From: Conchocele bisecta
Taxonomy: Eukaryota > Mollusca > Bivalvia > Lucinida > Thyasiridae
DNA: 64,000 nucleotides
Direction: 5' to 3'
Assembly: GCA_029237695.1 (NCBI GenBank)
Contig: CM055271.1
Coordinates: 83,029,488-83,093,487, forward strand
Shown here: in pieces, positions 3,951-44,029 of the stretch
Layout of the letters: every line of letters begins with the position of its first letter
Position numbering within the stretch: the first letter of the stretch is position 1
The notes under the pieces: model-generated
What the model was told of the DNA's origin: nothing
Database searches by the model: none
The model's input: only the letters and a program-made list of their open reading frames with translations
Translations under genes and position numbers: made by a program

Positions 3951-4112
3951 GGGTTAACTGTATTGTAATTTTCAAATTTGCGGCGTATATCAGAAAATGA
4001 TAGGTAGGAACATCTGTTTAATGGCGACGCGCTAGTGGAGCCATTAAACATGTTTTCCGACCTATAATTTTCTGATTTACGCCTCATATTTCAGAATTAC
4101 AATGCGGTTAAC
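3951..4112. repeat. Foldback (MITE-like) element
   Basis: The left arm beginning 'gggttaactgtattgtaatt' pairs with the right arm ending 'attacaatgcggttaac'. The inner arms, 'tatcagaaaatgataggt' and 'acctataattttctgat', also pair around a short centre near 4030. This is an imperfect long hairpin typical of non-autonomous DNA elements. Confidence 0.65.
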
Positions 4113-7539: not shown

Positions 7540-7544
7540 AATGT
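7540..7544. other. Left target-site duplication AATGT
   Basis: AATGT immediately precedes the left terminal inverted repeat and is repeated at 22040-22044 directly after the right one. The uninterrupted host repeat at ~22318 reads 'gttacaaatgtcactg', which gives the empty-site sequence. Confidence 0.85.
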
Positions 7545-7776
7545 AGCAGCAGGGAGGCTGGGCAGACTGAGAAAATAATATGAGAAAAGATGGTGTTTTT
7601 TATCGTTGCTATATATCCGTTTAAATGTGTTGTTTGTCTATGTTTTTATATAGTTTTTTGTCATACTTTCTCATGTTTTCTAAAAAACATGAGAAAATCC
7701 GCTTATTTTCGTGGTTGATAATTTTCTCATATTTTTCTCATATTATTTGTAATATTTTCGCGGCTGATAATAATTT
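7545..7776. repeat. Left terminal inverted repeat (232 bp)
   Basis: It starts AGCAGCAGGGAGGCTGGGCA and is matched in inverted orientation by 21808-22039. I counted two mismatches, one in the 'catatttttctcat' segment and one in 'atattttcgcgg'. The repeat is AT-rich apart from its outermost ~25 bp and holds a perfect internal hairpin. Confidence 0.93.
7667..7696. other. Perfect hairpin inside the left TIR
   Basis: A 13-bp stem, TTTCTCATGTTTT (7667-7679), pairs exactly with 7684-7696 across a 4-nt loop. The equivalent hairpin in the right TIR is at 21888-21917. It may be a recombinase or replication-protein binding site, which is inference only. Confidence 0.8.
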
Positions 7777-7858
7777 TTTAATTGTCGGCTTTAATAATTA
7801 AAATTGAAAAAAAATAAAAATACTTATTTATAATTGAACATAAAATAGATTGTTATAA

Positions 7859-8128
7859 ATGACAAAAACAATTTTATCTCGTGAAGATCTAATAGCTATT
7901 GACGGCGCGAGGGGAAATATTCCCGCCGACTGGGTTAAGATAAAATATAAGATTGGAACGCGTAGACTTAATAATTTATGGAACCGGGACTTAACTTTAC
8001 AGACTGGGTCTGAAGTATGGGTTTCGGCTTCTGATAAATGTGATAAAAAATCCCGCGGCAGGCCTAAGGGCACTAAAAACCCCGATAAATTATGGGCAAA
8101 GGAAAATAACTGGATAAGGACAAATTAA
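7859..8128 (+). CDS. Small basic protein with C-terminal AT-hook-like motif
   Basis: An 89-residue protein beginning MTKTILSRED. It has no membrane segment or signal peptide. Near the C terminus (about residues 67-76) is the basic SRGRPKGTKN stretch, whose GRP core is the hallmark of AT-hook minor-groove binding; tryptophans occur in the middle and at the end. A role in binding the AT-rich element DNA, as a chromatin-like or regulatory protein, is plausible but inferred. It is the first gene inside the left TIR. Its stop overlaps the stop of the convergent gene in the tetranucleotide TTAA at 8125-8128. I do not recognise the rest of the protein. Confidence 0.6.
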   Translation: MTKTILSREDLIAIDGARGNIPADWVKIKYKIGTRRLNNLWNRDLTLQTGSEVWVSASDKCDKKSRGRPKGTKNPDKLWAKENNWIRTN

Positions 8129-8619
8129 TAATATCTCTTTATTATAAAGTAAGTAGTAATTAGACCGGCGCCGACGTATAATAGAGGTAATAGGGGAGGA
8201 AACCCCACGGGGGGGGGGGGGGGGGGGGGGGGGTGGGGGGGGGGGGGGGGGGGGGGGGGGGGTTTGTGTTTGGGGGGGGGGGAGGGGGGGGGGGGGGGGG
8301 GGGGTGGGGGAGGGGGGGAGGTGGGGTAAACATATGAACGTTCGGCCATTTGATAATTAAGTAGGGCATCGTCTGCGCGCCTAAACCCTATTAATGAATT
8401 TATTTCTTCCTCTTTCATCGCAGATAACCAACCCATTCTGTCTGTTTTAATAGTGTTTGAATGAATTAGTTCTTTTTCTTCTTCTGACATCTTAGCTTGG
8501 GTTATTTCTGGTTCATCTCTGAATAAATCTTGAGCAAATGGTGTAATAAAATTTACCGCCGACGTAACCGCAAGCGGAATTCCTACTACTAATGCTGTTA
8601 ACACTGCTGGTGCTACCAT
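8125..8619 (-). CDS. Membrane protein with long polyproline tract
   Basis: A 164-residue protein. Residues ~1-28 form a hydrophobic segment after MVAPAV. Residues ~30-95 are charged and acidic (MSEEEKEL motif). Residues ~100-140 are almost pure proline, encoded by a G-run-rich plus strand at ~8210-8320. The last ~22 residues form a second hydrophobic segment ending KRYY. It could be a minor virion or membrane-anchored protein of the element. The polyproline region would form an extended rod. Such homopolymer tracts are prone to both true length variation and base-calling error, so the frame across the tract is less certain. It reads leftward and follows the fibre gene after a 43-bp gap. No family was recognised. 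Confidence 0.6.
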   Translation of the reverse strand: MVAPAVLTALVVGIPLAVTSAVNFITPFAQDLFRDEPEITQAKMSEEEKELIHSNTIKTDRMGWLSAMKEEEINSLIGFRRADDALLNYQMAERSYVYPTSPPPPPPPPPPPSPPPKHKPPPPPPPPPHPPPPPPPPVGFPPLLPLLYVGAGLITTYFIIKRYY

Positions 8620-8662
8620 TATGTTAGTATATAAATGTGTTTTTTTTTTACATCAAAATTAA

Positions 8663-10255
8663 TTAAGTTTCGATACCACGAATTCTACTGTTTAAATATT
8701 TAAACATCGTCGTCATTTCGTTTGGTGCGAACGCCCGAGGGTATATCAACATTCCATAAAAATTCATATTTCCGCGATAGTTTGAGTCTCCCGGCAAACT
8801 TCCTATATGTAGATTCTTTTCAGAGTTTGATATGGTTGTTGTAAAAGTTTCCGTAGCGTCTGGTGGTATATGGAAATCGGATCTAAATAAATTAGCAGTA
8901 ACGCCGTCATATGTATATCCCCAAGCCTCTAATCTACCCCCAATTGGTGGGTCTAAATTAGCAACATATAATCTTCCAGCCGGTAGTAATCCATAATCTA
9001 AAGTAATGCTGTCGGGTTTTTGTATATGCATGGAAAATCTATCACTACCACGACCCCAAAAGAACGCAGACCCATTAGTGCGCATCTTATTTTTACAAAT
9101 GAAAAATAGTGTAGTTTTATTTCTATTAGCGCCGCCGAACGTTCCACCATTTATATCAGACGCGATAAGATCGCATCCAATTTCTCCGTTGAATTTTAAG
9201 TAGGGTTGGTTGAAATCGTCAAATTCTTCTAAAAGAGGGGGTTGATTACCTGCCGCGAATGGGACGCTATTATAAATATCCATAACTGTATTTATTTCAC
9301 CATTATTCGAATATAAAACGCTTCTAAGGCTGGGGATTAAACCAAGAACTATATCTGAATATGGTATACCGGGTAGTACCGCCTCTATCGCGTGTAACCT
9401 GTCGTCGTTATATTTATCCACGGAATATTGGCTATAATTAATGGGGTCGCCCGCGTCTACAGCCTTTGGTAGATTTATTATTTTATTGTTAGACATATCA
9501 ATATTACCGGACATGCTACCACCCACTGTCGGTAAAAACGCATCTCCAACACCAACCCCCGCCATTTCATTTCTAAGAGCCTCATAAACAACATCGGCAT
9601 TGGCGTAAACTTCAGTTTTAACCGCCGTGTCTGATCTAACAATTTCCCTAGAAAGTAAATCTACGGACGTTACTAAATCCGTTCTTAGTGTATTATTTTG
9701 GTTGGTATACCCATCTTGGAGTAGTGTAAAAGAAACCGCCGCTTCATCCGTAAGTGTTTTTTTAACCGATTCATCTCCTGTAATGGCATCTGCGCGAATT
9801 TCTCCATGAACGGTTACCATATCACTCGTTAGATCGTCAACGGTTTTATTAACACCATTTATTAGTTGTATAAGGGCATTATCGACGACGGTTTTTTGAT
9901 CGGCTAATTCTTCTGCGAACTCGTGCCTAATAACCGCACCTTGTACAATATCCTCGTCTCGCAACGCCGTTGCTAACTCCGCCGCCTCTTCTCTGGTTGT
10001 GGTAAACATAGCAGTTGCCCGATCTCGAGATGTTCTATCACCACTTTCTATTTTATCTCTTAAGGCGTTTTCTAACGTGTTAACTTTCGTATCCATGATG
10101 TTTTTTTCCGTATTAATAAATGTTATTGTCCAATCGTGAATAGTGCTTCTAGCGGCCTCTATTTGGTTTGAGGTATAGGTGGTCATTTCCACCTTCAACT
10201 CATCTAGAAGAGTGTCTATATTATTGGCAATTCTTTTAGCTCCATAAATGCTCAT
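8663..10255 (-). CDS. Fibre-like protein (coiled stalk, tail-fibre motif, LamG-like head)
   Basis: I take the ATG at 10255 (MSIYGAKRIA), giving 530 residues. The open frame continues upstream, but only through an implausible Ile/Tyr-rich stretch of AT-rich promoter. Residues ~1-230 are charged and heptad-like without prolines, a predicted helical stalk. Around 233-275 lies a GDAFLPTVGGSMSGNIDMSN...INLP...DPINYSQY segment resembling the repeat seen in phage and viral tail fibres ('MSGNIDMNNNKI..LPDP'). Residues ~320-530 look like a concanavalin/LamG-type beta-sandwich with aromatic-rich strands. The layout is stalk, trimerising linker and globular head, as in receptor-binding fibres of adenovirus-like virions. 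The reading frame is intact. The receptor-binding role is inference from architecture. Confidence 0.7.
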   Translation of the reverse strand: MSIYGAKRIANNIDTLLDELKVEMTTYTSNQIEAARSTIHDWTITFINTEKNIMDTKVNTLENALRDKIESGDRTSRDRATAMFTTTREEAAELATALRDEDIVQGAVIRHEFAEELADQKTVVDNALIQLINGVNKTVDDLTSDMVTVHGEIRADAITGDESVKKTLTDEAAVSFTLLQDGYTNQNNTLRTDLVTSVDLLSREIVRSDTAVKTEVYANADVVYEALRNEMAGVGVGDAFLPTVGGSMSGNIDMSNNKIINLPKAVDAGDPINYSQYSVDKYNDDRLHAIEAVLPGIPYSDIVLGLIPSLRSVLYSNNGEINTVMDIYNSVPFAAGNQPPLLEEFDDFNQPYLKFNGEIGCDLIASDINGGTFGGANRNKTTLFFICKNKMRTNGSAFFWGRGSDRFSMHIQKPDSITLDYGLLPAGRLYVANLDPPIGGRLEAWGYTYDGVTANLFRSDFHIPPDATETFTTTISNSEKNLHIGSLPGDSNYRGNMNFYGMLIYPRAFAPNEMTTMFKYLNSRIRGIET

Positions 10256-10326
10256 TATTATTAATTTATGTAAATATATATATAAATAAATATATATATA
10301 AATAAATATATTTATATAAAAATAAA
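10256..10326. promoter_or_regulatory. Divergent AT-only intergenic promoter region
   Basis: These 71 bp separate the leftward fibre gene from the rightward 10327 gene. They are nearly pure A/T with repeated TATATAAA and a TTTATATAAA at 10311-10320, ending 6 bp before the ATG at 10327. A shared bidirectional promoter is likely but inferred. Confidence 0.45.
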
Positions 10327-10887
10327 ATGGCAACAACAACAAATTTTACTATAGTGAAAGACTTTAGGTTAGATAATGTAAAGGCTATGCAAGATATATT
10401 GATAAGAGAGGGAAATAATAGAATGAGAAGCGCTAGAAAATATAAAAGAGCGGCTAATATTGCGAACGCTATAGAAACCTCCTTAAGTTCTGTATCAATA
10501 ATTACTGGAACCGCTACAGCAGCAATACTATCTGCCGTGGTAACGATACCAATGGCTGGTGTTTTAAGTTGTGTTACAGTATTATCTGGTTCGCTAAGTA
10601 TGATAATTAGGGTGGCTGGTATAAAATTAAATAAAAAATGTAGAAAACACGATAGAATAGCTATTTTAGCCAAAGCAAAAAAAAATAGTGTAGATTTGCT
10701 AATATCTTCCTCGTTGGTTGATGATGTTATATCTAACTCAGAATTCGAGTCTATAATACAAGAAATGGGAAGGTATGAAGAGTTAAAAAATGAAATTAGA
10801 ATGAGGAATAGTGCAAAAATGCCCAAAATATTCGATACGGATTGGGATAAATATAGGGGAAAAATTGGGAATAAAGTTTATAATTAA
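10327..10887 (+). CDS. Two-TM protein with cytoplasmic helical tail (SLATT-like topology)
   Basis: A 186-residue protein. Residues ~1-45 are basic and helical (MRSARKYKRAANIANA). Two adjacent hydrophobic stretches, about 50-75 (ITGTATAAILSAVVTIPMAG) and 78-98 (LSCVTVLSGSLSMIIRVAG), make a hairpin membrane region with a very short loop. The rest is a charged helical tail ending near DTDWDKYRGKIG. The helix, two-TM hairpin, long helix plan resembles SLATT-type domains (the 2TM effectors of nucleotide-signalling systems), but I cannot confirm homology. The frame is intact, the gene is divergent from the fibre gene, and it is convergent with the next gene across a hairpin. Confidence 0.6.
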   Translation: MATTTNFTIVKDFRLDNVKAMQDILIREGNNRMRSARKYKRAANIANAIETSLSSVSIITGTATAAILSAVVTIPMAGVLSCVTVLSGSLSMIIRVAGIKLNKKCRKHDRIAILAKAKKNSVDLLISSSLVDDVISNSEFESIIQEMGRYEELKNEIRMRNSAKMPKIFDTDWDKYRGKIGNKVYN

Positions 10888-10920
10888 TTTTAGGAAATAA
10901 TTTTCCTAAATTAATTATAA
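10879..10920. terminator. Inverted repeat between convergent genes
   Basis: An almost perfect palindrome of about 20 bp per arm (TTATAATTAATTTTAGGAAA against its complement, with a one-base slip) sits across the ends of the 10327 and 10915 genes. It could serve as a bidirectional 3'-end signal. That role is inferred. Confidence 0.5.
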
Positions 10921-11310
10921 TGATTTAATTGATAAATAAATGTTTGAATTATTATTAAATGTAGAATAATTGAATACTTTTTTCAAACCCACTCTGTATA
11001 AATCGTTTAAAAAAACATTTTTTGTGCGAAATAAATTTACTGGGTATGATAATTTACGCAACTTACGTACATTTTGCATATGTGTTTTTAATAAGTTACA
11101 TATTTTTCTATTAAATATCGTAAATCCAACATTATTGTCGGTTCTTAAAACATTATGTTGCCTTAACATATGAAAAATATAAATGAATATAGTTATTTTT
11201 ACTTGCGGGGTTTCGTAAAAACTAAAATTTAATCCATTCTCCGTTTCGTCAAAATTAAAAATATTATCGAGTTCGTCGATATATAAACTTATTAATTGTT
11301 TAATCTTCAT
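10915..11310 (-). CDS. Unknown 131-residue element protein
   Basis: Begins MKIKQLISLYIDELDN and has an intact frame. The first ~55 residues are acidic and hydrophobic, with a VKITIFIYIFHML stretch. The C-terminal half is basic (KTHMQNVRKLRKL). No cysteine or metal motif and no clear membrane segment are present. It lies in a leftward pair with the putative penton gene (23-bp gap). I do not recognise the family; a DNA-binding or regulatory role would be a guess. Confidence 0.5.
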   Translation of the reverse strand: MKIKQLISLYIDELDNIFNFDETENGLNFSFYETPQVKITIFIYIFHMLRQHNVLRTDNNVGFTIFNRKICNLLKTHMQNVRKLRKLSYPVNLFRTKNVFLNDLYRVGLKKVFNYSTFNNNSNIYLSIKSL

Positions 11311-11332
11311 TGTTTATAATTAATCTAATATC

Positions 11333-12115
11333 TTAAATTATTTCTAATTCTATGGAAATTGGTAAACCGTGATTATCTACAAGCTTTCCTTCACAATCCG
11401 TAAATGTTAGTTCTAGTTCCGTAATAATTCCGGCCGTTAGTTTTTTATATAACGGAGTTGTTGGTGTAGTGTTAAAACTTTCACCATAAGTAGTCTGAGG
11501 AATGGAAATTTTAGATAATACTTTAGAATTTTTTCCATCTAATATATTATCACTCGTGCCGATTTGTTTTAAATTAATATCGAAGAATTTAGGCCACATA
11601 TTTAATTGTCCAGTATGCGCTCCATATCTATAAATAATATAATCCGTCCCTGGTATTTTTTTCTTTTTTGATAAACCTAAGGCATCTACAATATTATCAG
11701 ATATTAATATTGCAAACCCACTTTCCACGGTTACTGTACATATACCAGAATCGTAATCTATACTAATTGGATTTTTATCGATTGTTACAAAGGTATAAGT
11801 ACCATCGTCGTGTTTAACGGGTATATCTAACCTACTACCCAAATTTATAATATCCCTAGCGCCCCTAAGTCCTGATCCGATAAAGGCCTTTGTAACCCCA
11901 CCAAAACCAGTACCAGTATTTGGATCACCATCATCTTCTCCCTCATCGGGGCCTATTTGTAACATAGCCATCCAAGAATTTTCAATAGTATTATACCACC
12001 CTATCCAAACCGTTAATGATCTTATTCCTATTCTTTTATCGTAATTAGAATTATCTATCGCAGTTTGTAGAGAAACTGCACCATTTAAAATGTTGCTTAT
12101 AGTATGAAAGGACAT
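11333..12115 (-). CDS. Putative minor capsid (penton-like) protein
   Basis: A 260-residue protein beginning MSFHTISNIL, with an intact frame. It is rich in beta-prone segments and glycine/asparagine turns: IRSLTVWIGWYNT near 32, an acidic GPDEGEDDGDPNTG loop near 53, and IITELELTFTD near 232. There are no membrane segments. Size and beta-rich composition fit a single jelly-roll penton of polinton-like viruses, which is expected alongside MCP and ATPase. The assignment rests on size, composition and genome context, not on a diagnostic motif. It is divergent from the 12180 gene across a 64-bp AT-rich gap. Confidence 0.4.
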   Translation of the reverse strand: MSFHTISNILNGAVSLQTAIDNSNYDKRIGIRSLTVWIGWYNTIENSWMAMLQIGPDEGEDDGDPNTGTGFGGVTKAFIGSGLRGARDIINLGSRLDIPVKHDDGTYTFVTIDKNPISIDYDSGICTVTVESGFAILISDNIVDALGLSKKKKIPGTDYIIYRYGAHTGQLNMWPKFFDINLKQIGTSDNILDGKNSKVLSKISIPQTTYGESFNTTPTTPLYKKLTAGIITELELTFTDCEGKLVDNHGLPISIELEII

Positions 12116-12179
12116 TTTAATAATTTGTAAAAATTAAATTGCTATATATATAATTAAAAATTTTTATATAAATTTAATA
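12116..12179. promoter_or_regulatory. Divergent AT-rich promoter region
   Basis: A 64-bp gap between the leftward penton-like gene and the rightward 12180 gene. It contains 'tatatatataatt' and TTTTTATATAAATTT (12161-12175), close to the ATG at 12180. A TATA-like motif of this form precedes several element genes. Confidence 0.4.
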
Positions 12180-12970
12180 ATGACACAAGACGGCTTTAAA
12201 TATAAACCTTCTACAACATATAGAATAGGTGGGCATTATAAAGTTAGACGGGATGTGTTAGATATAATATCAAATATTGTTAATCCAACTAAACTATAAG
12301 AATTAATCAAAAGGATGAATTTAAGGTTCGTTATTTTAATATTTTTAATAAATATAAAATCGAAAGGGTTAAAACTGAAAGGGAGGTTAAAAAGTGGAGA
12401 AATAATCATATGATATTTTTACAAAATCAAATAAATTTTGCCGTATGGTGTGCAACCACCGGCTGTGGTGTTGGTGTAGACACCCATCTAAAAAATTCGG
12501 ACCCATTTATAAGAAGTCTTTACAATTTCCACACATATTTTACAATACGTAGAATTTTGAAAGAAATGAAGGTGAACGTTAATAGTTTAACAACGAACAA
12601 CCATAGTCCATATAATGTGGTAGAATATCAAAAAATATGTAGAGAATTTAATATACCACTAAATTCAAATTGGAGGCAGATGGTTTTTACAGATACACAG
12701 GGGCTTGGTACAGTATATGCTAATGGGTTGGCACATGGTGGTAGTTTTTACAGAGAGGCGAAATTTAGTTTACCGTTCTTTCCGATAAGCTATGAATATT
12801 TAGATAGAAAAACTGGGGGGTGGACGTTAAAGGATTTTACCGAAAAAACAACGTTCGGAGAGGAAACCCCCACCACCGAGCCTAAATGTAACGATGATGA
12901 TAGATGTTGGTGGCAACCACCTTCTATTGCTCACGTAGAATATATCGAACAACCCCCCCAACATAATTAA
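12180..12970 (+). pseudogene. Unknown element gene split by one frameshift
   Basis: An ATG at 12180 (MTQDGFKYKP...) opens a 39-codon frame that stops at 12297-12299. The next frame is open from about 12293 to 12970, so a one-base indel near 12297 separates a short N-terminal part from a C-terminal part of ~225 codons. The downstream part includes a basic segment before the methionine at 12410, FAVWCATTGCGVGVDTHL at ~12434-12488 (Cys/Gly-rich), and a proline-rich, acidic C-terminus ending at EQPPQHN. No known domain was recognised. It heads the rightward block of small and structural genes. Whether the lesion is biological or an assembly error cannot be told from sequence alone. Confidence 0.55.
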
Positions 12971-12986
12971 TGCCATTTGAACGTTT

Positions 12987-13640
12987 ATGGTCGGAAAGGG
13001 AGGGGGTTTTACTCAGGCCGGCATTGTTAGAATTAATGAGTCTATAAGAACCTATATTTGGGCTCTACTCGCCGCGCAGATTGAGGTGCGGAAACCCTTC
13101 GGGCGCGGGGCGGAGTCCTTCGGTGCGCAAAAACAGTTTATATCTCTAATGGAAGCTAAAATAAAGGCCGCATGGAACGTAACTGAATCTGTGAACAGAT
13201 ATCAACAATATCTATCAAAAACTAAAACTCCCGTAAATTATGTGTTTGGAACTGGGTTATATATGGCGCCTAGTAATATGATTATTGAAATGGGTGATAT
13301 GGGAAATTTTAATAATAAATTAATTATTGCCGGTGATATGTCGTCTATAGGTTTAAATGATAAAATAAACGCGATAAACTCGCGAAAAAAACCTATGCCC
13401 GATTTTGATTCTTTAGAAGAAGATGTGCAGTTGGGTGGGGTCATATCTAAAGAATCAAAATCCGTTATTTTAGATGAAGAGTTACAAATCGAAGATGATA
13501 TAGTTAAATATAAGTCTAAAATAATAGATTTTATAGGAAACGATTTAGAAAATAAAGATGAAACGTTATTGGATAATTTTGAAATAATGGTCGTGATTGG
13601 AGGGTTGTTTATTATTTATTTTTTAAAGAAAATTCTATAA
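12987..13640 (+). CDS. Tail-anchored element protein (possible minor virion protein)
   Basis: A 217-residue protein with one C-terminal hydrophobic segment (VVIGGLFIIYFLKKIL), so tail-anchored. The N-terminal half contains GGFTQAGIV and a basic, helical ESVNRYQQYLSK region. Residues ~140-195 are acidic. An alternative ATG lies at 12971, one nucleotide after the upstream stop. That frame (MPFERLWSE) joins this one only if a base is gained or lost in the G-rich run at ~13003-13012, so the true N terminus is uncertain. It is in tandem with its neighbours and the gap is 16 bp. No family was recognised; a membrane or virion-internal role is inferred. Confidence 0.5.
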   Translation: MVGKGGGFTQAGIVRINESIRTYIWALLAAQIEVRKPFGRGAESFGAQKQFISLMEAKIKAAWNVTESVNRYQQYLSKTKTPVNYVFGTGLYMAPSNMIIEMGDMGNFNNKLIIAGDMSSIGLNDKINAINSRKKPMPDFDSLEEDVQLGGVISKESKSVILDEELQIEDDIVKYKSKIIDFIGNDLENKDETLLDNFEIMVVIGGLFIIYFLKKIL

Positions 13641-13674
13641 TTATATACTTAATTATAAATTAATTTTATAAGCA

Positions 13675-14376
13675 ATGACGATAACCCAAGCTGGAACAAT
13701 AGCCCGAAGGGCACAAACATACGCGGGGGGGGGGGGGGGGGTACGCAAACGGTCGGGTGGGGTGGAGGCGACCACCGGTGCGGAGAGTGGGGGTGGGTCG
13801 TGGGTTTAATATACCCCCCAACCCCGCAACAGCGCGAAACCCTACCACATTAGATTTAGCTCAAGGGGGGCGCAGGAGGATGTTGGGGGTGAGCAGGATA
13901 TTATGGTAGGTAGTAGACAGCATACACAGGGGGAGGAGCTTTTAAAACAACATTCGGACGATTTTTATATGTTTCATAACGAGCGCGGGCAATTCCCAAC
14001 CGCGGGGCGGGCAATCCGTCAAGAATTTAAGTACATAGCGGACCAGAGTGGTGGGCCGTTTCACCTTCGTTTGGCAGACCACCCCAGCGCTAAATTAACT
14101 AATAGGAATGGTACCTTTAAATCCCTCGAAACTATAGCCAGAGAGAGTGGTATTGGTGTGGTTAGGGCTTTAGGCTTTGTTGATTTTAAAAGGGGAGGTG
14201 GTCGGGCGGCGATGGCCAACAGATTACAAGAGCTGCACGTAAATATACCAATGAACAACATATACCCAAACCTAGACGCCCTTACAAATACTGCAAAAAC
14301 AATATATAGGGGTATAGACGGCTCTAATACTGCGTTTTTGCCTAAACATTATAGAGACGCTCTAGGGGGGATGTGA
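13675..14376 (+). pseudogene. Unknown element gene interrupted by a stop and a 17-base G run
   Basis: An ATG at 13675 (MTITQAGTIARRAQ) is in the same frame as the open stretch 13903-14376, but a TAA at 13807-13809 lies between them and a run of 17 G at 13725-13741 precedes it. The intact 157-residue part begins MVGSRQHTQGEELL. It includes HNERGQFPTAGRAIRQEF and a glycine/arginine-rich FKRGGGRAAMANRLQELHV segment, and ends FLPKHYRDALGGM. No domain was identified. It overlaps the start of the next gene by 4 nt at a GGGGGG run, so the two may be one gene shifted by an indel. It may be a core or minor capsid component, judged by position just before the membrane protein and MCP. Confidence 0.5.
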
Positions 14377-15212
14377 ACTGGGAAAAAAATAAAGCCGACG
14401 CAGCTATCGCCAACCGTGAAAGTGATATTTTACGAAAAGATATAAAACTTTTAAGTAAAGTAAAGGCCGCCATGGTGCGGTTTAACAAGATTTTAGCAGA
14501 TAGTGTTTTGGGGGGTGTTATTTATAAAATTAATAGCGCAAAAGCAACATTAAAGCAATTAGCAAATAAACATTTAGCGTTAAGAAATAACATCACCACG
14601 CGGAGTAATAATATTAAAGATAGGTTGGCAAGTATTAAAAATACACTCTCTGAGATAAAGAGAGAAGATTTAACGGTATTGGAAAAAGTTAAAACTGTTT
14701 TTAGAGAACAGGGTATTTCTATTGGTGCTGTGTTATCCGCACTTGCAATAATAGTTGGTATTTCTGTTACGCCCGCGCTTCTGGAGTCTGAAGCCGACGA
14801 AGATCAAGATTTCCAAGATGGTGTTGTGGAACCAGATACGCCGTTAGATGACGAGGGTAATTTGGTTGATATAGAAGACGAGGATTTTTTTGAAGATGAT
14901 AATGTGTTGGAAGGGGGTGAACACATTAATACCGACGAAATTGATGATATTATAGACGCGTCAGACGGTTCGCTGTTAGATGATGCTGGTTTAGTAGTAA
15001 GTAAAAATATGTATGGTGTATTTAGTACGATAGGGTCGTATCTTATTTCAAAAGGTGATATGATATTAACAGCAATACCTGGATTGTTTGGTGCAATCTT
15101 AGGTGGTATTTTAAAAATATTAGGAAAGGGCGCTATCGCAATTGCAAATAATATATGGATGGGGTTGTTATTAATTTTCGGAGGGGTTGGTATACTTTAT
15201 TCAAAAGATTAA
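14373..15212 (+). CDS. Membrane-active minor virion-like protein, two hydrophobic regions
   Basis: A 279-codon open frame. Its first methionine-like codon (14373) is GTG and the frame runs upstream through a G-run, so the start is uncertain; an eukaryotic start may lie in the preceding gene. Residues 1-110 are basic and helical (KVKAAMVRFNKI, KREDLTVLEKVKTVFREQG). Residues ~113-135 form a hydrophobic segment (ISIGAVLSALAIIVGISVT), ~138-200 are highly acidic (EDEDFFEDDN), and the C-terminal ~60 residues are glycine-rich hydrophobic (IPGLFGAILGGILKILGKGAIAIA) ending LYSKD. The glycine-rich amphipathic tail resembles membrane-disrupting or penetrating segments. Placement directly before the MCP suggests a virion protein. 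The function is inferred. Confidence 0.55.
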   Translation: MNWEKNKADAAIANRESDILRKDIKLLSKVKAAMVRFNKILADSVLGGVIYKINSAKATLKQLANKHLALRNNITTRSNNIKDRLASIKNTLSEIKREDLTVLEKVKTVFREQGISIGAVLSALAIIVGISVTPALLESEADEDQDFQDGVVEPDTPLDDEGNLVDIEDEDFFEDDNVLEGGEHINTDEIDDIIDASDGSLLDDAGLVVSKNMYGVFSTIGSYLISKGDMILTAIPGLFGAILGGILKILGKGAIAIANNIWMGLLLIFGGVGILYSKD

Positions 15213-15281
15213 TTAATTTAAATTTAAAAATGTTTATATTCTATTTTATAATAATTTCAAAGAAATTAAAATTTAAAAACA
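15213..15281 (+). promoter_or_regulatory. AT-rich leader of the capsid gene
   Basis: A 69-bp, nearly all-A/T gap with TTAATTAATTTAAATTT after the preceding stop and TTTTATAA at 15244-15251, 31 bp before the ATG. Related TATA-like motifs precede the 10327, 12180, 16601, 17298 and 18397 genes. A viral-type promoter is inferred. Confidence 0.4.
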
Positions 15282-16559
15282 ATGTCTTATGGTAATAAAC
15301 TCGAGCCCCATCGTAGATTTCGCGAACCTAATGCCGCAAAGGGGGTTAGGCAAAGTGTAGTAATTACTAATAACCCATCTACAATCGATCAAAATCAACA
15401 ACTACTTGTAAGGTTTCCTAATTTGGGTGGTGATGATGTTATTGTACCAGGTAGCTCTAAGTTGGCCTTTACTATAACGTTGGATTCGACAGACGTAAAT
15501 AGAACGCTTGTTCAAAATATTGGGCGCGCGATCGTTCAGAAAACGACTATTAAAATTAGCGGTAATGAAATAATGTCTCTTGACGACTCAGATATATACG
15601 GATGTTATCAGGACCTATGGAAAACAAAAACCGCGCGAGATAACTCGGTTTATCAAGGTATTGATACTAGCGCAAATAGAAACGTGACGAAACGTAGGAT
15701 AAACGCTGGTGATAAGGCGTCAAATGCCGCAGACGATGTAGTTGCTAGTGTTTATGGTAATAGATTTTATATTCCTCTAGATTTTGAATTACTAGAGACC
15801 GTTATGCCGTTTTACCAAAGCGGTTTGGCAGACCGTCTGGAATATGAACTAACGTTCGGTGAGTATAATAGGGTAATAAATTCTGCGAACACCAGCACAT
15901 ATAAAATTGACGGAATCTCTCTAGAGTTTGATACTGTCACCCAGATGGATCTTGCGGCCACAATTAGAGAAAGATATGCCGGTAAGGTTGCGATTCCATA
16001 TGATAGAATTCTTCGTCATAGACGAGTCGTTAAAAATAAAGCCGACACGTTGTGGAATTTTAACGTTAACGTTCCAGCCAGATCGATGAAAGGAATATTA
16101 ATGTTATTCGAAGAAACCGCCGTGGCGGGGGTTAGAAATTCTGAACATTTTTATAATCCTAAAATTACGAAGGTAGAGACAACTGTAGAGGGTGTACCAA
16201 ACCAATTGTTTAGTCAGGGTATGCTTGGTCACCATCAATGGGACGAAATCCGTAAAATGTTTGGCGGTGGTCATAATGAGGCGGCTGTAACCGATATAGT
16301 TTCTAAACAGCTACAAACTTCCGACGTAACTGTGGCCGAATTCTTCACATCTAAATACGCTCTTTGGATGGATCTACGACTGAGTGATGATAGCAATTTA
16401 CACGGCTCTGGAAGACGGGTTATAAATGCCAGCGAAGGAATATCCCTTCAAATTACAAAAGACGCGGACGGCGATGGTGAAATAATAGTTTTCATATTTA
16501 TAGTTACAGACGGCGCCATAATTATAGAAGGTGGTAGACTTAGCCGTGTTATGTATTAA
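15282..16559 (+). CDS. Probable major capsid protein (double jelly-roll)
   Basis: A 425-residue intact frame beginning MSYGNKLEPHRRFRE. It is the longest rightward gene, with no membrane segment. It is rich in beta-prone stretches separated by polar loops: SSKLAFTITLDST (~60), IVQKTTIKISGNEI (~84), RFYIPLDFELLETVMPFYQSGL (~161), LADRLEYELTFGEY (~181) and ISLEFDTVTQ (~207). The FYIPL...LLE...MPF segment followed by LEYELTF is typical of the strand pattern in NCLDV, polinton and polinton-like MCPs ('ipLp.w' type). Length is near that of compact PLV capsids. The gene lies immediately upstream of the packaging ATPase, the conserved order in this virus group. Assigned by architecture and context, not by a unique motif. 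Confidence 0.6.
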   Translation: MSYGNKLEPHRRFREPNAAKGVRQSVVITNNPSTIDQNQQLLVRFPNLGGDDVIVPGSSKLAFTITLDSTDVNRTLVQNIGRAIVQKTTIKISGNEIMSLDDSDIYGCYQDLWKTKTARDNSVYQGIDTSANRNVTKRRINAGDKASNAADDVVASVYGNRFYIPLDFELLETVMPFYQSGLADRLEYELTFGEYNRVINSANTSTYKIDGISLEFDTVTQMDLAATIRERYAGKVAIPYDRILRHRRVVKNKADTLWNFNVNVPARSMKGILMLFEETAVAGVRNSEHFYNPKITKVETTVEGVPNQLFSQGMLGHHQWDEIRKMFGGGHNEAAVTDIVSKQLQTSDVTVAEFFTSKYALWMDLRLSDDSNLHGSGRRVINASEGISLQITKDADGDGEIIVFIFIVTDGAIIIEGGRLSRVMY

Positions 16560-16600
16560 TTTAACAAATTAATTATAAAAAAATGTAGTAATTTATAAAG

Positions 16601-17140
16601 ATGGATAATATAATAAAAACAATCTGTAAAACTCCACACGCCGCAATAATATGCGGACAAACTGGGTGTGGGAAAACTGTTTTCATATTAAATCTACTAG
16701 AAACGGAATATATTAATATATTTGAACACATCGTGATTATATGCCCAAATTTAAAATGGAATGAAGCTTATAAAAAACGTAAATGGATAAAAACAGATCC
16801 AAATATATATTTAGTAGATCCTGGAGAAAATTTACACGAATGGATAAGAGTTTATTATACTTTATTTCAGGGCGAAACCTCTCTGTTTATTTTAGACGAT
16901 TGCTCGGCAAAGTCTGCGATGATAAAAAAGAGAGATATGTTAACCGAACTCGCCTTTTCTGGTAGACACGCTGGTCATAGTGTATGGGTTTTAACACAAA
17001 AATATAATTCTGTGTTAAAAGATTTACGCGAACAAACAAAATGGACTGCTTTATTTCATTGTAAAGATCGGGATTCTATAGACGATACGTTAAGAGAAAA
17101 TGACGTAATTTCTACAAAAAAACGAACGAGAAGAAGTTAA
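16601..17140 (+). CDS. A32-like (FtsK/HerA) genome-packaging ATPase
   Basis: A 179-residue frame. Walker A is GQTGCGKT at residues 19-26. Walker B is LFILDDC at 95-101, and a sensor-type stretch, SGRHAGHSVWVLTQKYNSVLKDLREQ, follows at about 121-146. This is the layout of A32-like packaging ATPases of polintons, PLVs and large DNA viruses, which pump genome DNA into capsids. The frame stops at 17140, but the next frame is open from ~17124 to 17234 (36 further codons). This suggests a one-base indel in the A-run at 17115-17122 and a natural protein of ~215 residues. Both catalytic motifs lie in the intact part. It sits 41 bp after the MCP gene. Confidence 0.85.
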   Translation: MDNIIKTICKTPHAAIICGQTGCGKTVFILNLLETEYINIFEHIVIICPNLKWNEAYKKRKWIKTDPNIYLVDPGENLHEWIRVYYTLFQGETSLFILDDCSAKSAMIKKRDMLTELAFSGRHAGHSVWVLTQKYNSVLKDLREQTKWTALFHCKDRDSIDDTLRENDVISTKKRTRRS

Positions 17141-17297
17141 AGAAATTTTAAAAAAGAATAAACATTCGCTTATTATTATTTTAAAAACAAAAACCGATCA
17201 ACCGACGGATTATAATATAATTTTACAGGATTAATTTTTATATTATATTTTTATAAAAATTAAACTATACTTTTAATTATTTTTCTCAATCGTTACA

Positions 17298-17870
17298 ATG
17301 CAAGACGAATTATTAGATAATATTTTACCAGATGTTTCTAAAATATCAGAGGAGGTTGGTTTTGAAAAAATTAATGAGAAACTTAAGAAAAAAATTAAAC
17401 CAAAGAAAAATCTAAATGTAGAAATTTTATCAGACGAAGTTGTTGAAATGCGGGAAGTGTTAGCAAAAATAACTATGGGTGGGCAGTCTCAATTTTATTT
17501 AGGAAATAAATATTTAGTAGCAGATATTAATAACTTAAAAGATTCGGCCGAAATTATTAAACTTTATTCTTTATATGAATCTAAGTTAGGATTAATAATG
17601 ACAAAAACGTTGGGAGAAACTATTATAAACACCGCGGTAAATGGAGTTGGGTGTATAATAAATTTGAAAAATGTTGAAGAGTTGAAAGACGAACTTAAAA
17701 ACGATCCGTTTATTGATACTGCACTTAGATCCCTCTGTACAATGGCATACTATTCGTTGGGTGTTTACATGGCACCACTAACAGCCGCTCTTAAAACTAT
17801 TCAACATTATGACAACACACCTAAACAGGATATAACAGAAAATTTACAACCAATAACTGAACCTAATTAA
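17298..17870 (+). CDS. Unknown 190-residue element protein
   Basis: Begins MQDELLDNILPD with an intact frame. The N-terminal ~45 residues are charged and helical with a basic LKKKIKPKKNL patch. The middle contains QSQFYLGNKYLVADINNLKDSAE and TKTLGETIINTAVNGVGCII. The C-terminal third is mildly hydrophobic (LCTMAYYSLGVYMAPLTAALKT), not a clear membrane helix. It sits in the late-gene block after the ATPase and may be a small virion or assembly protein. No family was recognised. Confidence 0.5.
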   Translation: MQDELLDNILPDVSKISEEVGFEKINEKLKKKIKPKKNLNVEILSDEVVEMREVLAKITMGGQSQFYLGNKYLVADINNLKDSAEIIKLYSLYESKLGLIMTKTLGETIINTAVNGVGCIINLKNVEELKDELKNDPFIDTALRSLCTMAYYSLGVYMAPLTAALKTIQHYDNTPKQDITENLQPITEPN

Positions 17871-17918
17871 TTTTAACAGAATTATAAATATTAATATGTA
17901 TAACGATAAAAAAATATA

Positions 17919-18317
17919 ATGACCGAGTTAAAAAATGAGGACGATAAAAAACCTATAGAGGATGATAAAAAATCCATAGAGGATGACAAAAAACCCATAG
18001 AGGACGACTCGATCGATGAAATTAAACAGGTAACTAAGAAAAACCCAAAGAGGGTAGAAGGTGGAAAGGTTTCTGCCATGAAACGAAAGGTGCTTAAACA
18101 ATTAAAAAACCAAACCATAACACCAACAGAAAATTAGGAAGTTATACAAACCGATACACACACACCAAGTCGGTATAAACATAAACATAACTTACTTTAT
18201 GTTGGTGGAGTGGTTTGTTGTTTATTTATTGGATTAGCTACATATACATATTATTCACAACCAGAACCAGTTAAAAATAAAGTGGTAGGTTTTTCACGCA
18301 GGACGATAATATACTAA
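17919..18317 (+). pseudogene. Acidic-repeat membrane protein interrupted by a TAG
   Basis: An ATG at 17919 starts a charged N-terminus with three tandem EDDKKPIEDDKKS-type repeats, then a basic KKNPKRVEGGKVSAMKRK region. A TAG at 18135-18137 stops it after 72 codons. The same frame stays open for 59 more codons to 18317 and encodes a clear membrane helix (LLYVGGVVCCLFIGLATYTYY, about 18198-18260) followed by a short polar tail. The simplest reading is a type II or tail-anchored membrane protein broken by one nonsense mutation. A second frame continuing to 18337 hints at a further indel near 18300. No family was recognised. Confidence 0.55.
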
Positions 18318-18396
18318 GTGATCGTGATATGGATTAATTAATTATAATTAATTTAAATAAATTAATATATATATAATTTTATAAGAAAATTAGAAA

Positions 18397-18630
18397 ATGA
18401 CTTGGCAAAGTGCAGTAAACTCCTCATATAATGCTGGAATTGTTGTAGCTCTCACACTGGGAATTGGTGCTGGAGTAAAGGCGGTTACTAAAACCAGAAA
18501 CCCCAAACTAGACCTAAACGTATATGATATTTCTATGCTGACCGCCTATCTAGCGGCGGCAACCATAATAAAAGATTATTTAGTATCTATAAACGCTATA
18601 GATGATGACATTACTAATATGTTGGGCTAG
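18397..18630 (+). CDS. Small two-helix membrane protein
   Basis: A 77-residue intact frame beginning MTWQSAVNSSYN. Hydrophobic segments lie at about 13-30 (AGIVVALTLGIGAGVKA) and 47-64 (ISMLTAYLAAATIIKDYL), joined by a short polar loop. It is the last gene of the rightward block. TTTTATAA at 18377-18384 precedes the ATG. Its TAG stop overlaps the TAG of the convergent helicase in the palindrome CTAG (18627-18630). It may be a virion membrane or assembly protein; the function is unknown. Confidence 0.55.
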   Translation: MTWQSAVNSSYNAGIVVALTLGIGAGVKAVTKTRNPKLDLNVYDISMLTAYLAAATIIKDYLVSINAIDDDITNMLG

Positions 18631-19577
18631 TTCCACCCAACCATACCCAATTGATTTAAATATTCTACTCGCGATACTGCGAGATATGAAAGATTTGACC
18701 ACGCAATATTATTATCTATAATCCATACTTTTTTAGGGGCTTTTATAGTAAGACCTTGACTTGCGTGTACAGTCATCGCATATCCAAATACCCAATCGTT
18801 AAACTTTTCAAACGCCACCCCCCCTTTAAAAAACGAAATAGGAACATATTCTATATCATTCATTACGAGCATTTTTTTTTCATCTGAGCCCGGAATTTTA
18901 ACCATAATGTTTTGTTTACGACTATCCGTTGGGTGGTATAATATCGGCACTGGGGTATTTGGAAAATGTTTTTTATGATATTTAAATAATAGTTTTTGAG
19001 CAGAGTCTCTAACAATTTTACGGCTCGCAAAAATTACATCGTTCGGGGTCCAATTTTTTATAAATTTTTTCCAACATAAACTATCTGGAAGACCTTCACA
19101 CATTTCATTATATTGAACCTCGTCTGGTTTAAGTCTCATACGAATCTTTAATTTCTTAAGATCTTCACACTTTGCTCGATAATCGGTCGTGATGTGCTCG
19201 TAATATGCAACCTTTTTTTCCAACCAACTATGTGGACTTTCACCAGCTATGGGTGGTGGTTGCCCATTATCTCCACAAAATATTATTTGTGTACCCCTAA
19301 TACTTAACCATTCTATAAATTCTTTTAAAATATGTAGTGGAACTGTACATATTTCATCCCATATTATAATTCTGGGAATATATTTATTGCCCATTCTTTC
19401 GGGTGTCCACTGCACGTTCCCGTTCCACCTAAAGAAAGAATGATATGTTTGAGCCTCTACCCCCCTTTCGTGCATTTCCTTAGTTAGTTTATGTGTTGGT
19501 GTTAAAACGATAACTTGTTGTATTTTATCATTAAACGCGTTTATAGCTCTAGTAGTTTTACCGCTTCCACCACCCCG
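18627..19577 (-). CDS. SF1 (RecD/Pif1-type) DNA helicase domain
   Basis: The helicase frame is open from ~19577 down to 18627, though the first methionine is at 19475. Upstream of that methionine the frame encodes GGGSGKTT, a Walker A (19552-19574). Walker B is IIIWDE (residues 36-41 from the Met) and motif III is FCGDNGQPP (residues 66-74). A late TVHASQG motif (~229) and SRVEYL (~265) are the signature of SF1B helicases. The preceding polymerase frame ends at 19541, overlapping this frame. No start codon lies ahead of the Walker A in this frame, so the helicase is probably the C-terminal part of a polymerase-helicase fusion broken by a one-base indel in the C-run at ~19573-19576. Expected role: unwinding the replicating element. 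Confidence 0.85.
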   Translation of the reverse strand, partial: RGGGSGKTTRAINAFNDKIQQVIVLTPTHKLTKEMHERGVEAQTYHSFFRWNGNVQWTPERMGNKYIPRIIIWDEICTVPLHILKEFIEWLSIRGTQIIFCGDNGQPPPIAGESPHSWLEKKVAYYEHITTDYRAKCEDLKKLKIRMRLKPDEVQYNEMCEGLPDSLCWKKFIKNWTPNDVIFASRKIVRDSAQKLLFKYHKKHFPNTPVPILYHPTDSRKQNIMVKIPGSDEKKMLVMNDIEYVPISFFKGGVAFEKFNDWVFGYAMTVHASQGLTIKAPKKVWIIDNNIAWSNLSYLAVSRVEYLNQLGMVGWN

Positions 19578-21463
19578 TTTAAATAAACCGTCTTACACAT
19601 TAACATTTTATCTACATTTATCGGTTCATATAAAATGGATAAACTTCCAAAATGCTCATCTTTTGGAAAGTAAACCGCATGGTCTTGAGATTTGAAAACC
19701 TCCCCACCCTTGGATCTCCATTGTGCTGGTTTTGCCTCAATTATTTTGGTATATTTGTCCGTTATTATATCTCTAACGACCGCATTATTATTATCTAATT
19801 TATGTAATGCATTTTTATAAATATATACGCTATCCGTAGCAACCCTTACAACCTCTTTTTCATTAAATAATATAAGCATAGATAAAAGATTTATATGTGC
19901 GTACGCCAACATACTAGACCGGAGATGAGTATATTGAACAGTTTGTCCACTATAATACGTTAAAATATGTCCAAGTGGACACCTTTGTGGTGCGCCTACC
20001 ATAGTACCGTTTTCTGTAGTGTCTCTTACTAGAAAATCTAATTCATTTTCGTCTATTACCAACCGTCTAGTCATTTGTTTATCGTCTTCCTTATTTCCCT
20101 GCGTAAATTTACCTATAACACTACATGCCATATTTCTTTGCTCTGGTAACCACACACATTTTTGATTTTCAAAGGCTATAATAACCTCACCTATTATAAT
20201 ATTTTGTAATATTCCAGACTCTTTTAAATATACCAATAATTGTGTAGGGGTCCACTTATTTTCTATAAAATGAGACCCAATCCACGAAACAATAACTGGG
20301 TGAAGACAATCTCTAAATTTCCATTCTACAACCCGCGCAAAACCAGTACCAATGTTTTCCGGTAAAGCCCCATCAATTTTAATCCTGGTCATTTGATGTC
20401 TCGGATGGCCAAATCTGTTAAAATATGATTTAGCATCTCCAAGGCCGCGGAAACTTGCCGGGTAACAAGCCTTCATATCTAATTCTACAACGTCATCAAT
20501 ATCATAATTAATTGAATTCCACAACCCACCATGTCCATGTTCGACGCACGATTTTTTAATATCTTCCAAAAAGCTCGCCTGTGTCGGTTTCCATTCGTTT
20601 TTTTCTTTCGCAGCCACAAACGCTGCGTGGTTTTCGCCGAAAATTTGATCTACTATACTCGGATATCCAAACTCGTTACAAATTTGTATTAACGATTGGT
20701 GTAATTCGTTTGTTCTATATACTGAACCATCTTCTAGTACAAATTGAGAAACGCTTAGCTGGTTAGAGCCACCACCCACCAACCAAATAGCGGCTGGTTT
20801 ATCTTCTATAACCTCTTTTAACGATTCCCATACATCACCCTCATAAAATTTAACAACTCTCTTTTTTGGAAAAGATAACGAATTTGTCCACGCGTGTTTA
20901 TTATGTGATAATACTTCTATAACGTTTCCCTTCGTTATATATTTTCCACTATTATATAAATCATATCCGGTAATATCCTTTACTACAACCCCCCTCTTTA
21001 TAATATATTCTAACTTTACTATATCTTTTATAGTTGCACCACCCTCTCTTACACCAACCTCCCATTTATTAATCTCTTCTAATCTTTTCTCAGTAAGCCC
21101 ACTACCCCTCACGGCGTTCTTAAAATTATCAATAACTAAATTAGCTACACAGTTTATATCTCCTTTCTTCATTGGTGGTAGTTTTTCGATATCTGGTTCC
21201 CGCATTTTATATATTCCATATATAACTGCAGATAGTGGATACGCCCTCTCATAATATGGTTTATCTATACCAACTAAAACCCCAGGTGGAGAGGTTTTCA
21301 TAAGAACTACTATACCGATACTATCCTTGTGTAATTTTACAGGACTAAGTTTATCCTCAATCAATAGCTTATTGTGAGCGCCCCGTCTTAAATATTTTAA
21401 ACGTAGAATATACTTACCGTCAGGTAATTTAGCTAATATTTCGGTCGCTCGCCCCTGTGTCAT
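19541..21463 (-). CDS. Family B-like DNA polymerase
   Basis: A 640-residue open frame. VELDMKACYPASF (about residues 326-338) matches polymerase motif A (DxxxxYP). An 'HLRSSMLAYAHINLL' helix (~515-530) lies in the motif B/thumb position, and VRVATDSVYIYK (~541-552) is motif C with the catalytic TDS. The N-terminal ~300 residues may hold an exonuclease- or primer-handling domain that I could not assign. The frame continues upstream of the first methionine to ~21740 except for a TAG at 21635-21637, so the natural protein is probably longer. The C-terminus runs into the helicase by a frame change. It is the largest gene, leftward from the right TIR, and would replicate the element. Confidence 0.8.
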   Translation of the reverse strand: MTQGRATEILAKLPDGKYILRLKYLRRGAHNKLLIEDKLSPVKLHKDSIGIVVLMKTSPPGVLVGIDKPYYERAYPLSAVIYGIYKMREPDIEKLPPMKKGDINCVANLVIDNFKNAVRGSGLTEKRLEEINKWEVGVREGGATIKDIVKLEYIIKRGVVVKDITGYDLYNSGKYITKGNVIEVLSHNKHAWTNSLSFPKKRVVKFYEGDVWESLKEVIEDKPAAIWLVGGGSNQLSVSQFVLEDGSVYRTNELHQSLIQICNEFGYPSIVDQIFGENHAAFVAAKEKNEWKPTQASFLEDIKKSCVEHGHGGLWNSINYDIDDVVELDMKACYPASFRGLGDAKSYFNRFGHPRHQMTRIKIDGALPENIGTGFARVVEWKFRDCLHPVIVSWIGSHFIENKWTPTQLLVYLKESGILQNIIIGEVIIAFENQKCVWLPEQRNMACSVIGKFTQGNKEDDKQMTRRLVIDENELDFLVRDTTENGTMVGAPQRCPLGHILTYYSGQTVQYTHLRSSMLAYAHINLLSMLILFNEKEVVRVATDSVYIYKNALHKLDNNNAVVRDIITDKYTKIIEAKPAQWRSKGGEVFKSQDHAVYFPKDEHFGSLSILYEPINVDKMLMCKTVYLNGVVEAVKLLEL

Positions 21464-21740
21464 CCTATTATCCTTAACGGTGTTCTTATATTCCTTTCTA
21501 CACGTAGAATAAGATGCTATTGCACCGTCGTTTTTAAATTCAACCTTCGCCTCTTGTATCTTTTGTACCCACTGAGTAGAGCTTCTAGATAGTTTTTCAT
21601 TGTGCGGTACTAAACCATCTATATCAATAAAATCCTACACAACAGGCCTAAACAATTCTTCAATTTCTACCCAATCTTCGAGTGTAAAGTTTTTTATCTT
21701 TATAATATAGCATATAAACTTTTGTTCAAAAATGAAAATT
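21464..21740 (-). pseudogene. Detached N-terminal extension of the polymerase gene
   Basis: In the polymerase frame the sequence upstream of 21463 is open for 57 codons (SRSSTQWVQKIQEAKVEF etc.), meets a TAG at 21635-21637, then is open again for ~33 codons with a plausible coding segment (NFTLEDWVEIEELF). No ATG in frame was found at the upstream end. This suggests a nonsense mutation inside the original 5' part of the gene, or use of the downstream ATG at 21463. Confidence 0.5.
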
Positions 21741-21807
21741 AAATAATTAATAACAAATTATCGTTTACAACAATAACATTTATGTTCAATTGATAATATT
21801 TTTTTAG
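21741..21807. promoter_or_regulatory. AT-rich gap between polymerase gene and right TIR
   Basis: 67 bp of AT-rich sequence that probably contains the leftward promoter of the polymerase-helicase unit. No specific motif can be singled out. Confidence 0.3.
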
Positions 21808-22039
21808 AAATTATTATCAGCCGCAAAAATATTACAAATAATATGAGAAAAAGATGAGAAAATTATCAACCACGAAAATAAGCGGATTTTCTCATGTTTT
21901 TTAGAAAACATGAGAAAGTATGACAAAAAACTATATAAAAACATAGACAAACAACACATTTAAACGGATATATAGCAACGATAAAAAACACCATCTTTTC
22001 TCATATTATTTTCTCAGTCTGCCCAGCCTCCCTGCTGCT
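21808..22039. repeat. Right terminal inverted repeat (232 bp)
   Basis: The inverted match of 7545-7776, ending in the complement of AGCAGCAGGG. It contains the second copy of the perfect 13-bp hairpin at 21888-21917. Confidence 0.93.
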
Positions 22040-22044
22040 AATGT
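22040..22044. other. Right target-site duplication AATGT
   Basis: AATGT directly follows the right TIR, and the host repeat resumes with 'cactgatctgtgttcaccaa'. Confidence 0.85.
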
Positions 22045-43960: not shown

Positions 43961-44029
43961 ATGTCGCGACCACCATTGGAACCGTCTCATCGAGACCAGT
44001 AGATGTCGCGACCACCATTGGAACCGTCT
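43961..44029. repeat. Half-hairpin direct repeat at the satellite boundary
   Basis: 'atgtcgcgaccaccattggaaccgtct' (27 bp) occurs at 43961-43987 and again at 44003-44029. It is one arm of the foldback family at 27030/28780; the other arm is missing. Satellite DNA starts immediately after the second copy. Confidence 0.85.

Follow-up and report, generated by a model that had tools for sequence, protein, structure and literature searches.

An endogenous capsid-encoding element of a bivalve genome that probably joins a polinton-type capsid module to a Tlr1-like replication module

How does a virus-like transposon in which no integrase can be recognised come to lie precisely integrated in an animal chromosome? 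The question is raised by a stretch of 64,000 nucleotides (the window) from the bivalve Conchocele bisecta (GenBank assembly GCA_029237695.1, contig CM055271.1, positions 83,029,488 to 83,093,487 of the forward strand). It contains a bounded unit of 14.5 kb (window positions 7545–22039), which runs from terminal inverted repeat (TIR) to TIR within the host chromosome. This unit is probably an endogenous capsid-encoding element of the polinton supergroup (phylum Preplasmiviricota), composed of two modules of different history and likely inserted in trans by the RVE integrase of polintons. The capsid module (capsid protein, A32-type ATPase, candidate fibre and penton proteins, gene A and others) would belong to a family common with the resident polintons that encode an integrase and a protein-primed family B DNA polymerase (pPolB), and the replication module (the TIRs and a polymerase-helicase) to the Tlr1-like-helicase kind. 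The features on which this reading depends are the following:

7540..7544, no strand: left target-site duplication, AATGT
7545..7781, plus strand: left TIR, with the tip AGCAGCAGGGAGGCTGGGCAG, found 22 times in the genome at up to two mismatches (control, 1)
15282..16559, plus strand: capsid protein of 425 residues, from a model fold match; Capsid_N below cut-off
16601..17140, plus strand: A32-type genome-packaging ATPase (Pox_A32, phrog_2666)
18627..19475, minus strand: superfamily 1 (SF1) helicase part; the frame is open upstream of the ATG and holds the Walker A motif GGGSGKT
19541..21463, minus strand: protein-primed PolB-like part, from a model match, with a weakly OTU-like region in front
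21803..22039, minus strand: right TIR, from arm comparison
22040..22044, no strand: right target-site duplication, AATGT

An earlier note on this DNA had described a complete-ended element of this size, and its TIRs and AATGT duplication were both verified. The TIR arms (7545–7781 and 21803–22039) measure 237 bp each instead of the 232 bp first given, align without gaps and differ by four mismatches (1.7% divergence); an alternative length of 238 bp takes in one flanking base per side. AATGT is duplicated at both borders (7540–7544 and 22040–22044), and a paralogous site, the repeat unit at 22314–22348 in the right flank, is empty, reading GTTACAAATGTCACTG with a single AATGT. A search for other genomic copies with the same ends, whose absence would by the earlier note have refuted its reading, was carried out on the 1.89-Gb host assembly. 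The TIR was found at 16 places, making eight convergent pairs, and its first 21 bases, at up to two mismatches, at 22 places (one in the control), making ten pairs and two single ends on C8 and C14. The pairs span 13.0–16.1 kb, apart from a 27-kb pair at C3:2.87M that contains internal duplications. Read by eye, nine of the ten carry exact 5-bp target duplications, and C4 matches at four of the five bases. Chance insertion of a free virus through host DNA repair, with no integrase involved, would agree with the integrase gene not being found, but TIR-to-TIR ends and 5-bp duplications in ten two-ended copies make it hardly credible. The two single ends (C8:597590 and C14:23554793) are of the window type, and neither a partner tip nor a polymerase-helicase match goes with them; in the C8 copy a capsid gene of 87% identity lies some 10 kb in from the tip. 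A zf-RVT (retrotransposon) fragment also lies inside the C8 copy (L029:4179-4658, expectation value (E) 1.3e-8).

The polymerase and helicase genes named in the earlier note both hold, and a polymerase-helicase of this type is familiar chiefly from viruses of protists. The polymerase part (19541–21463) has no Pfam match, and its structural model matches the phi29 polymerase in a superposition that begins at phi29 residue 52; no exonuclease motifs are visible in it by eye. Motif C (DTD) lacks its first Asp and reads ATDS in the window copy and in 14 of the 16 relatives that reach it in a printing of every second alignment row (P0146 and P0206 are disrupted at the motif). The region before the PolB palm bears a weak resemblance to OTU. 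In the window, the helicase matches AAA_30 (E 4.5e-5) and AAA_19 (E 8.6e-5) below the cut-off, and in copy C10, where polymerase and helicase form one intact frame of 938 residues, AAA_19 passes it (E 8.3e-8). The description of a polymerase joined to a helicase thus stands for the family and fails for the window copy, in which the two lie in different frames. A protein-primed PolB palm fused to a C-terminal SF1 helicase, a characteristic of polinton-like viruses (PLVs) with a Tlr1-like helicase, is present, split in the window copy; what had been taken for an oddity matches the published helicase type, as described in the available part of PMC11071308.

Outside this genome the polymerase has 102 relatives, some of 930–1,090 residues with the helicase attached, and polymerase-helicase relatives occur in sea slugs, a coral (a Desmophyllum protein) and mycorrhizal fungi. 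The arbuscular mycorrhizal relatives are P0154, P0191, P0192, P0206, P0219 and P0221 (Diversispora, Gigaspora, Racocetra, Rhizophagus). Inside the genome, a polymerase-helicase DNA signature was found at nine places at up to three mismatches (control, 0), all of them copies already known, and a protein search gave, among the best 49 of 966 candidates, the nine known copies at 75–100% identity and 40 further places at 46–62%, which would be an older group. Many in this group (for example at C3:18518697, C4:34232392 and C1:4938099) have stops, and some frames reach about 1,175 residues. The family DNA_pol_B_2 was not matched by the window polymerase and is not among the 25 of 40 families listed for 43 relatives, and the resident polinton pPolB gave no match in the window element. 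RVE integrase gave no match in a Pfam scan that covered 16 of the element's 17 open reading frames (ORFs) of at least 80 residues, nor did the resident polinton integrase, by tblastn, in the window element or the polymerase-helicase copies fetched. The gene set is, as first proposed, not the standard Maverick one and without a recognised integrase. Pfam scans of the window ORFs and their longer forms gave no Ulp1-type cysteine protease, though a diverged one may be present.

The sole Pfam match of the probable capsid protein is to Capsid_N (E 0.0012, below cut-off). An AlphaFold model made from 81 sequences (predicted local distance difference test score, pLDDT, 80; predicted template modelling score, pTM, 0.85) matches capsid structures with a best E of 1.1e-15, and the 50 matches listed include PBCV-1, grouper iridovirus, EhV-201, mavirus, faustovirus and Sputnik, by titles that name entries and not always the matched chain. 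These are viruses which we take to be of the double jelly-roll type. The jelly-roll check suggested in the earlier note has thereby given a fold match, and 15282–16559 is, as modelled, a predicted double jelly-roll capsid protein, with 3,416 relatives at E of at most 1e-3 among 7,998 scored candidates. The packaging ATPase is confirmed by Pox_A32 (E 3.4e-12, above the Pfam cut-off) and by phrog_2666, a terminase (E 2.4e-10). Capsid fold and A32 ATPase together support the placement, made from the letters alone, among capsid-encoding elements of the polinton supergroup.

The window capsid genes and those of resident polintons are of the same family. Among the best 99 of 14,683 candidates, a genome-wide capsid search found 18 places at 79% identity or more, four at 70–72% and 77 at 65–67%; 68 of the 77 have no stop, in a list that holds best matches only and is hence biased to intact genes. 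Two elements of the 65–67% group, C2:125.3M and C1:123.5M, encode RVE integrase and pPolB. The integrase (PF00665) passes the cut-off in L044 (E 3e-9), falls just short of it in L046 (32.0 bits, cut-off 32.6) and has D-D-34-E spacing. C7:89.9M (C7_89) and C5:69.2M have pPolB, which in C7 passes the cut-off for DNA_pol_B_2 (E 4.6e-13), and no match to the resident integrase. The tip of C2_125, C1_123 and C7_89 is AGTAGTATA(T/G)AGGGAGTC, present 7,228 times in the genome at up to two mismatches (control, 0), and an integrase 30-mer occurs 4,607 times at up to three (control, 0); the load would be about 3,600–4,600 insertions, fragments counted. Some tip pairs, among the first places listed, stand just 1.6–5 kb apart and are perhaps short deletion derivatives. 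Target duplications are exact and of 5 bp in ten of ten sampled pairs, as well as in C7_89 and C1_123, and of 5 bp by eye in C2_125, where script shifts gave 4 or 6. Such a load is not new by itself: for another bivalve, Mercenaria, the available part of PMC8905726 tabulates 7,091 Maverick entries amounting to 31 Mb.

The relation between the two kinds is seen most directly in C10. The TIR of this copy is of the window type, and across 708 residues its polymerase-helicase shows 90% identity with that of the window element. Its capsid protein is 94–99% identical to that of C7_89; compared with the window's, it is 91% identical in the first 75 residues and 65–70% beyond them. The ATPase part is 98% identical to C7_89 against 64% to the window in the same region, its last 66 residues being 91% identical to the window; g17298 is 87% against 43% and gene A 67% against 43%. 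The fibre is near both, with 94% identity to C7_89 across 240 residues and 88% to the window element. C7_89 itself has the polinton tip and a pPolB 92–97% identical to that of C2:125.3M. C10 is a recombinant between the polymerase-helicase and pPolB kinds, and modules have been swapped inside one genome. The two tip types are AGTAGTATATAGGGAG and AGCAGCAGGGAGG, and TIR type tracks polymerase type: nine polymerase-helicase copies have the window tip and three pPolB elements the polinton tip. From the C10 and C7_89 comparisons it follows that, among copies where both could be read, capsid genes change partners while the TIR type stays with the polymerase type. The distinct part of the window element is its replication module with the TIRs, and relatives with another replication part, present in this genome too, suggest that such viruses trade whole modules and may also use one another's integration enzyme.

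In a capsid tree of 51 rows, the eight window-kind rows, C10 included, form one clade (support 100/99) and twelve amplified polinton rows another (100/100), and two origins are needed for the rows of this genome. The tree leaves out C3b and L023, which are too short, and C7_89; the last would break the match between the window clade and the polymerase-helicase kind, because its capsid is near-identical to that of C10. That the window kind has capsid genes of its own was considered and overturned by the genome capsid search and the reading of flanks. Nor do all near-identical capsid genes lie in polymerase-helicase elements: only six of the 18 places at 79% or more have the signature within 15 kb, and none of the other 12 (at C2:42.87M, C12:51.00M and C8:0.61M, among others) is beside a polymerase-helicase protein match among the best 49 of 966 candidates. 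The separate lineage that had been thought possible does not hold for the whole element, the capsid genes being of the polinton family and at least one copy recombinant.

Breaks interrupt the window copy ahead of the polymerase frame, at the polymerase–helicase junction and inside genes A and B, and the copy itself is probably non-functional; some of the same frames are open in other copies. Genes of the element show purifying selection. Ratios of nonsynonymous to synonymous change (dN/dS), computed against the window copy, are 0.05–0.09 for the capsid protein in six of eight comparisons (the other two are saturated), 0.05–0.15 for the polymerase and 0.08–0.24 for the ATPase (eight comparisons each), and 0.16–0.42 for the fibre candidate and 0.20–0.55 for the penton candidate (11 each). 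Silent sites differ between the window copy and C4 by 0.17 in the capsid gene and 0.25 in the polymerase, against 1.7% between the window's own TIRs, so the two lineages would have split as functional replicons long before the window insertion. A decayed ordinary Maverick that has lost its integrase and polymerase could be read from the broken frames and from the co-resident pPolB/RVE polintons; a polymerase-helicase under purifying selection, intact in C10 and with long, helicase-bearing relatives elsewhere among the 102, makes this reading most improbable.

What, then, inserts these elements? One copy (C2:157023292-157036296; L015, L016) is a head-to-head inverted dimer of the left half, with arms about 98% identical besides an insertion, with TIRs and with an exact 5-bp duplication. 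Replication that starts at TIRs is expected to yield such dimers as by-products, as in adenovirus-like systems. The dimer keeps gene A and 10327 and gave no match for capsid protein, ATPase, helicase or polymerase. Being precisely integrated without polymerase, capsid or ATPase genes, it needed outside help to replicate and probably also to integrate. The polinton integrase is the likeliest helper for window-type integration because of the equal duplication length and the great abundance of polintons, and integration in trans by this enzyme seems to us slightly favoured on balance; window-type and polinton tips resemble each other weakly.

Two other sources of the enzyme have to be weighed. 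An integrase or recombinase of the element's own, hidden in an orphan gene, would require no partner. Genes A, B, 10327, 10915 and 17298 gave no convincing family match in Pfam and PHROGs scans, and an enzyme encoded in cis would fit the retention of gene A and 10327 in the dimer; both points weigh against insertion in trans. Gene A, 10327 and 17298 have homologues in RVE-bearing polintons too, however, and so look like shared capsid-module genes, and genes A and B contain hydrophobic segments, so that we regard an own enzyme as unlikely. Another enzyme of the host is less likely still. Long terminal repeat (LTR) retrotransposon integrases and Transib-type transposases also make 5-bp duplications, and duplication length alone does not discriminate, which again counts against the polinton enzyme. 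These enzymes read their own ends, of TG..CA or CACWATG type, whereas the tip of the window-type element is AGCAGCAGGG, and polintons that share the capsid family and also leave 5-bp duplications are the more obvious donors.

With the polinton integrase as the preferred helper, the life cycle would run as follows. Protein-primed synthesis starting at the TIR ends would copy the linear genome, with strand displacement aided by the fused SF1 helicase; the ATPase would package genomes into capsids; and, since the element encodes no recognisable integrase, the RVE integrase of co-resident polintons would insert it in trans through a 5-bp staggered cut. Virion formation, protein priming and integration in trans are steps that we infer. 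A wider proposal, which we advance tentatively and hold a little less firmly, is that polymerase-helicase elements are a recurrent integrase-less, capsid-forming class beside polintons, which would acquire polinton capsid genes by recombination and be inserted by polinton integrase in trans (a satellite relation), with TIRs and polymerase as one exchangeable cassette.

The remaining genes of the element are these:

7859..8128, plus strand: small basic protein of 89 residues, AT-hook-like RGRPKGTK by eye
8125..8619, minus strand: proline-rich protein, hydrophobic at its ends, with weak conservation in some copies
8663..10255, minus strand: fibre candidate, from sequence features by eye
10327..10887, plus strand: membrane protein candidate (by eye), 186 residues
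10915..11310, minus strand: protein of 131 residues, no assigned function
11333..12115, minus strand: candidate minor capsid (penton) protein, by position only
12410..12970, plus strand: gene A, first part; a single frame with the second part in other copies
12987..13640, plus strand: gene A, second part, with hydrophobic C-terminus
13903..14376, plus strand: gene B, first part; a single frame with the second part in L020 (419 residues)
14472..15212, plus strand: gene B, second part, with hydrophobic segments
17298..17870, plus strand: conserved protein g17298, 190 residues, 3' of the ATPase in both element kinds
17919..18137, plus strand: small charged protein
18397..18630, plus strand: small hydrophobic protein

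The small basic protein is 72–96% identical in seven other copies and has no Pfam match. The fibre candidate has, by eye, a coiled-coil-like N-terminus, a tail-fibre-like GGSMSGNIDM motif and a lectin-like C-terminus, and a Pfam scan gave it no family. The 10327 gene has one PHROGs match of unknown function (E 0.0007). The penton candidate is present in 11 other copies, and a database search returned no relatives. Gene A is unbroken in L021 (L021:6535-8037, 500 residues) and L013 (530 residues), and Pfam and PHROGs scans gave it no family; the unbroken gene B of L020 lies at L020:183-1442. Beyond the element, window positions 44000–64000 are filled, over 20 kb, by degenerate tandem repeats rich in C (GC content near 0.6, GC skew near -0.7) with units such as CCATCATCGTCCCCATCACCATCCCCGCG; the tract has a sharp border near 44,030 and reaches the window end.

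Scans of IMG/VR with the capsid protein and the polymerase alignment gave no free-virus relatives, and a phage collection likewise gave none. In a scan of bacterial and archaeal genomes, one 4.6-kb contig (L023, 4602 bases, from a Diapherotrites metagenome-assembled genome) holds the C-terminal piece of a capsid protein, 48% identical, and frames that by eye resemble those of the ATPase, g17298 and pPolB, the last with YTDIDS; it is probably a misbinned eukaryotic-virus contig. Coral polintoviruses, again with an animal host, were reportedly described by Stephens et al. in 2024. Polinton evolution has so far been inferred from distant genomes with discordant capsid and replication genes. Here both module types and a recombinant at 90–99% identity occur in one animal genome, which opens the exchange to study at its breakpoints and makes the host genome a natural test of integrase action in trans on foreign ends; if true, this would be a satellite relation for integration inside one animal genome.

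Among known systems, polintons/Mavericks (Polintoviricetes) share with the window kind the capsid-module genes, the TIRs, the 5-bp duplication (in this genome) and the size; in the window kind the polymerase-helicase module stands where polintons have an RVE integrase and a pPolB of family DNA_pol_B_2. In the available part of PMC11071308, Tlr1 and PLVs with a Tlr1-like helicase have, like the window kind, a PolB palm without the first motif C Asp and an SF1 helicase behind it, an OTU-like region in front (at most a weak likeness here), an HNH-like tail in some relatives, a double jelly-roll capsid and a packaging ATPase. Tlr1 itself has an RVE integrase, which was not found in the window kind, and, unlike Tlr1, the window kind has a capsid family common with resident polintons. 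The helicases named there are from a ciliate, an algal virus and a mimivirid transpoviron; elements of this kind in an animal, with sea slug, coral and mycorrhizal fungal relatives, go beyond those hosts. The Oxyrrhis marina PLV, as far as the available part of PMC12721341 describes it, is likewise endogenous, in mainly fragmented copies, with an SF1 helicase–PolB fusion and no RVE detected; its helicase is N-terminal, its PolB has an exonuclease and it has a tyrosine recombinase, whereas the helicase of the window kind is C-terminal and no recombinase was found. The open-licence literature, in the parts available (including PMC10120064, PMC12451622, PMC7805220, PMC12220804, PMC10328495, PMC4642659 and PMC10294476), yielded no mollusc elements with a Tlr1-like helicase. 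The replication architecture, double jelly-roll capsids and RVE-less PLVs are each known kinds; as far as the literature available to us shows, what is new is their combination in an animal genome, a recombinant of both modules and a specific case for insertion in trans.

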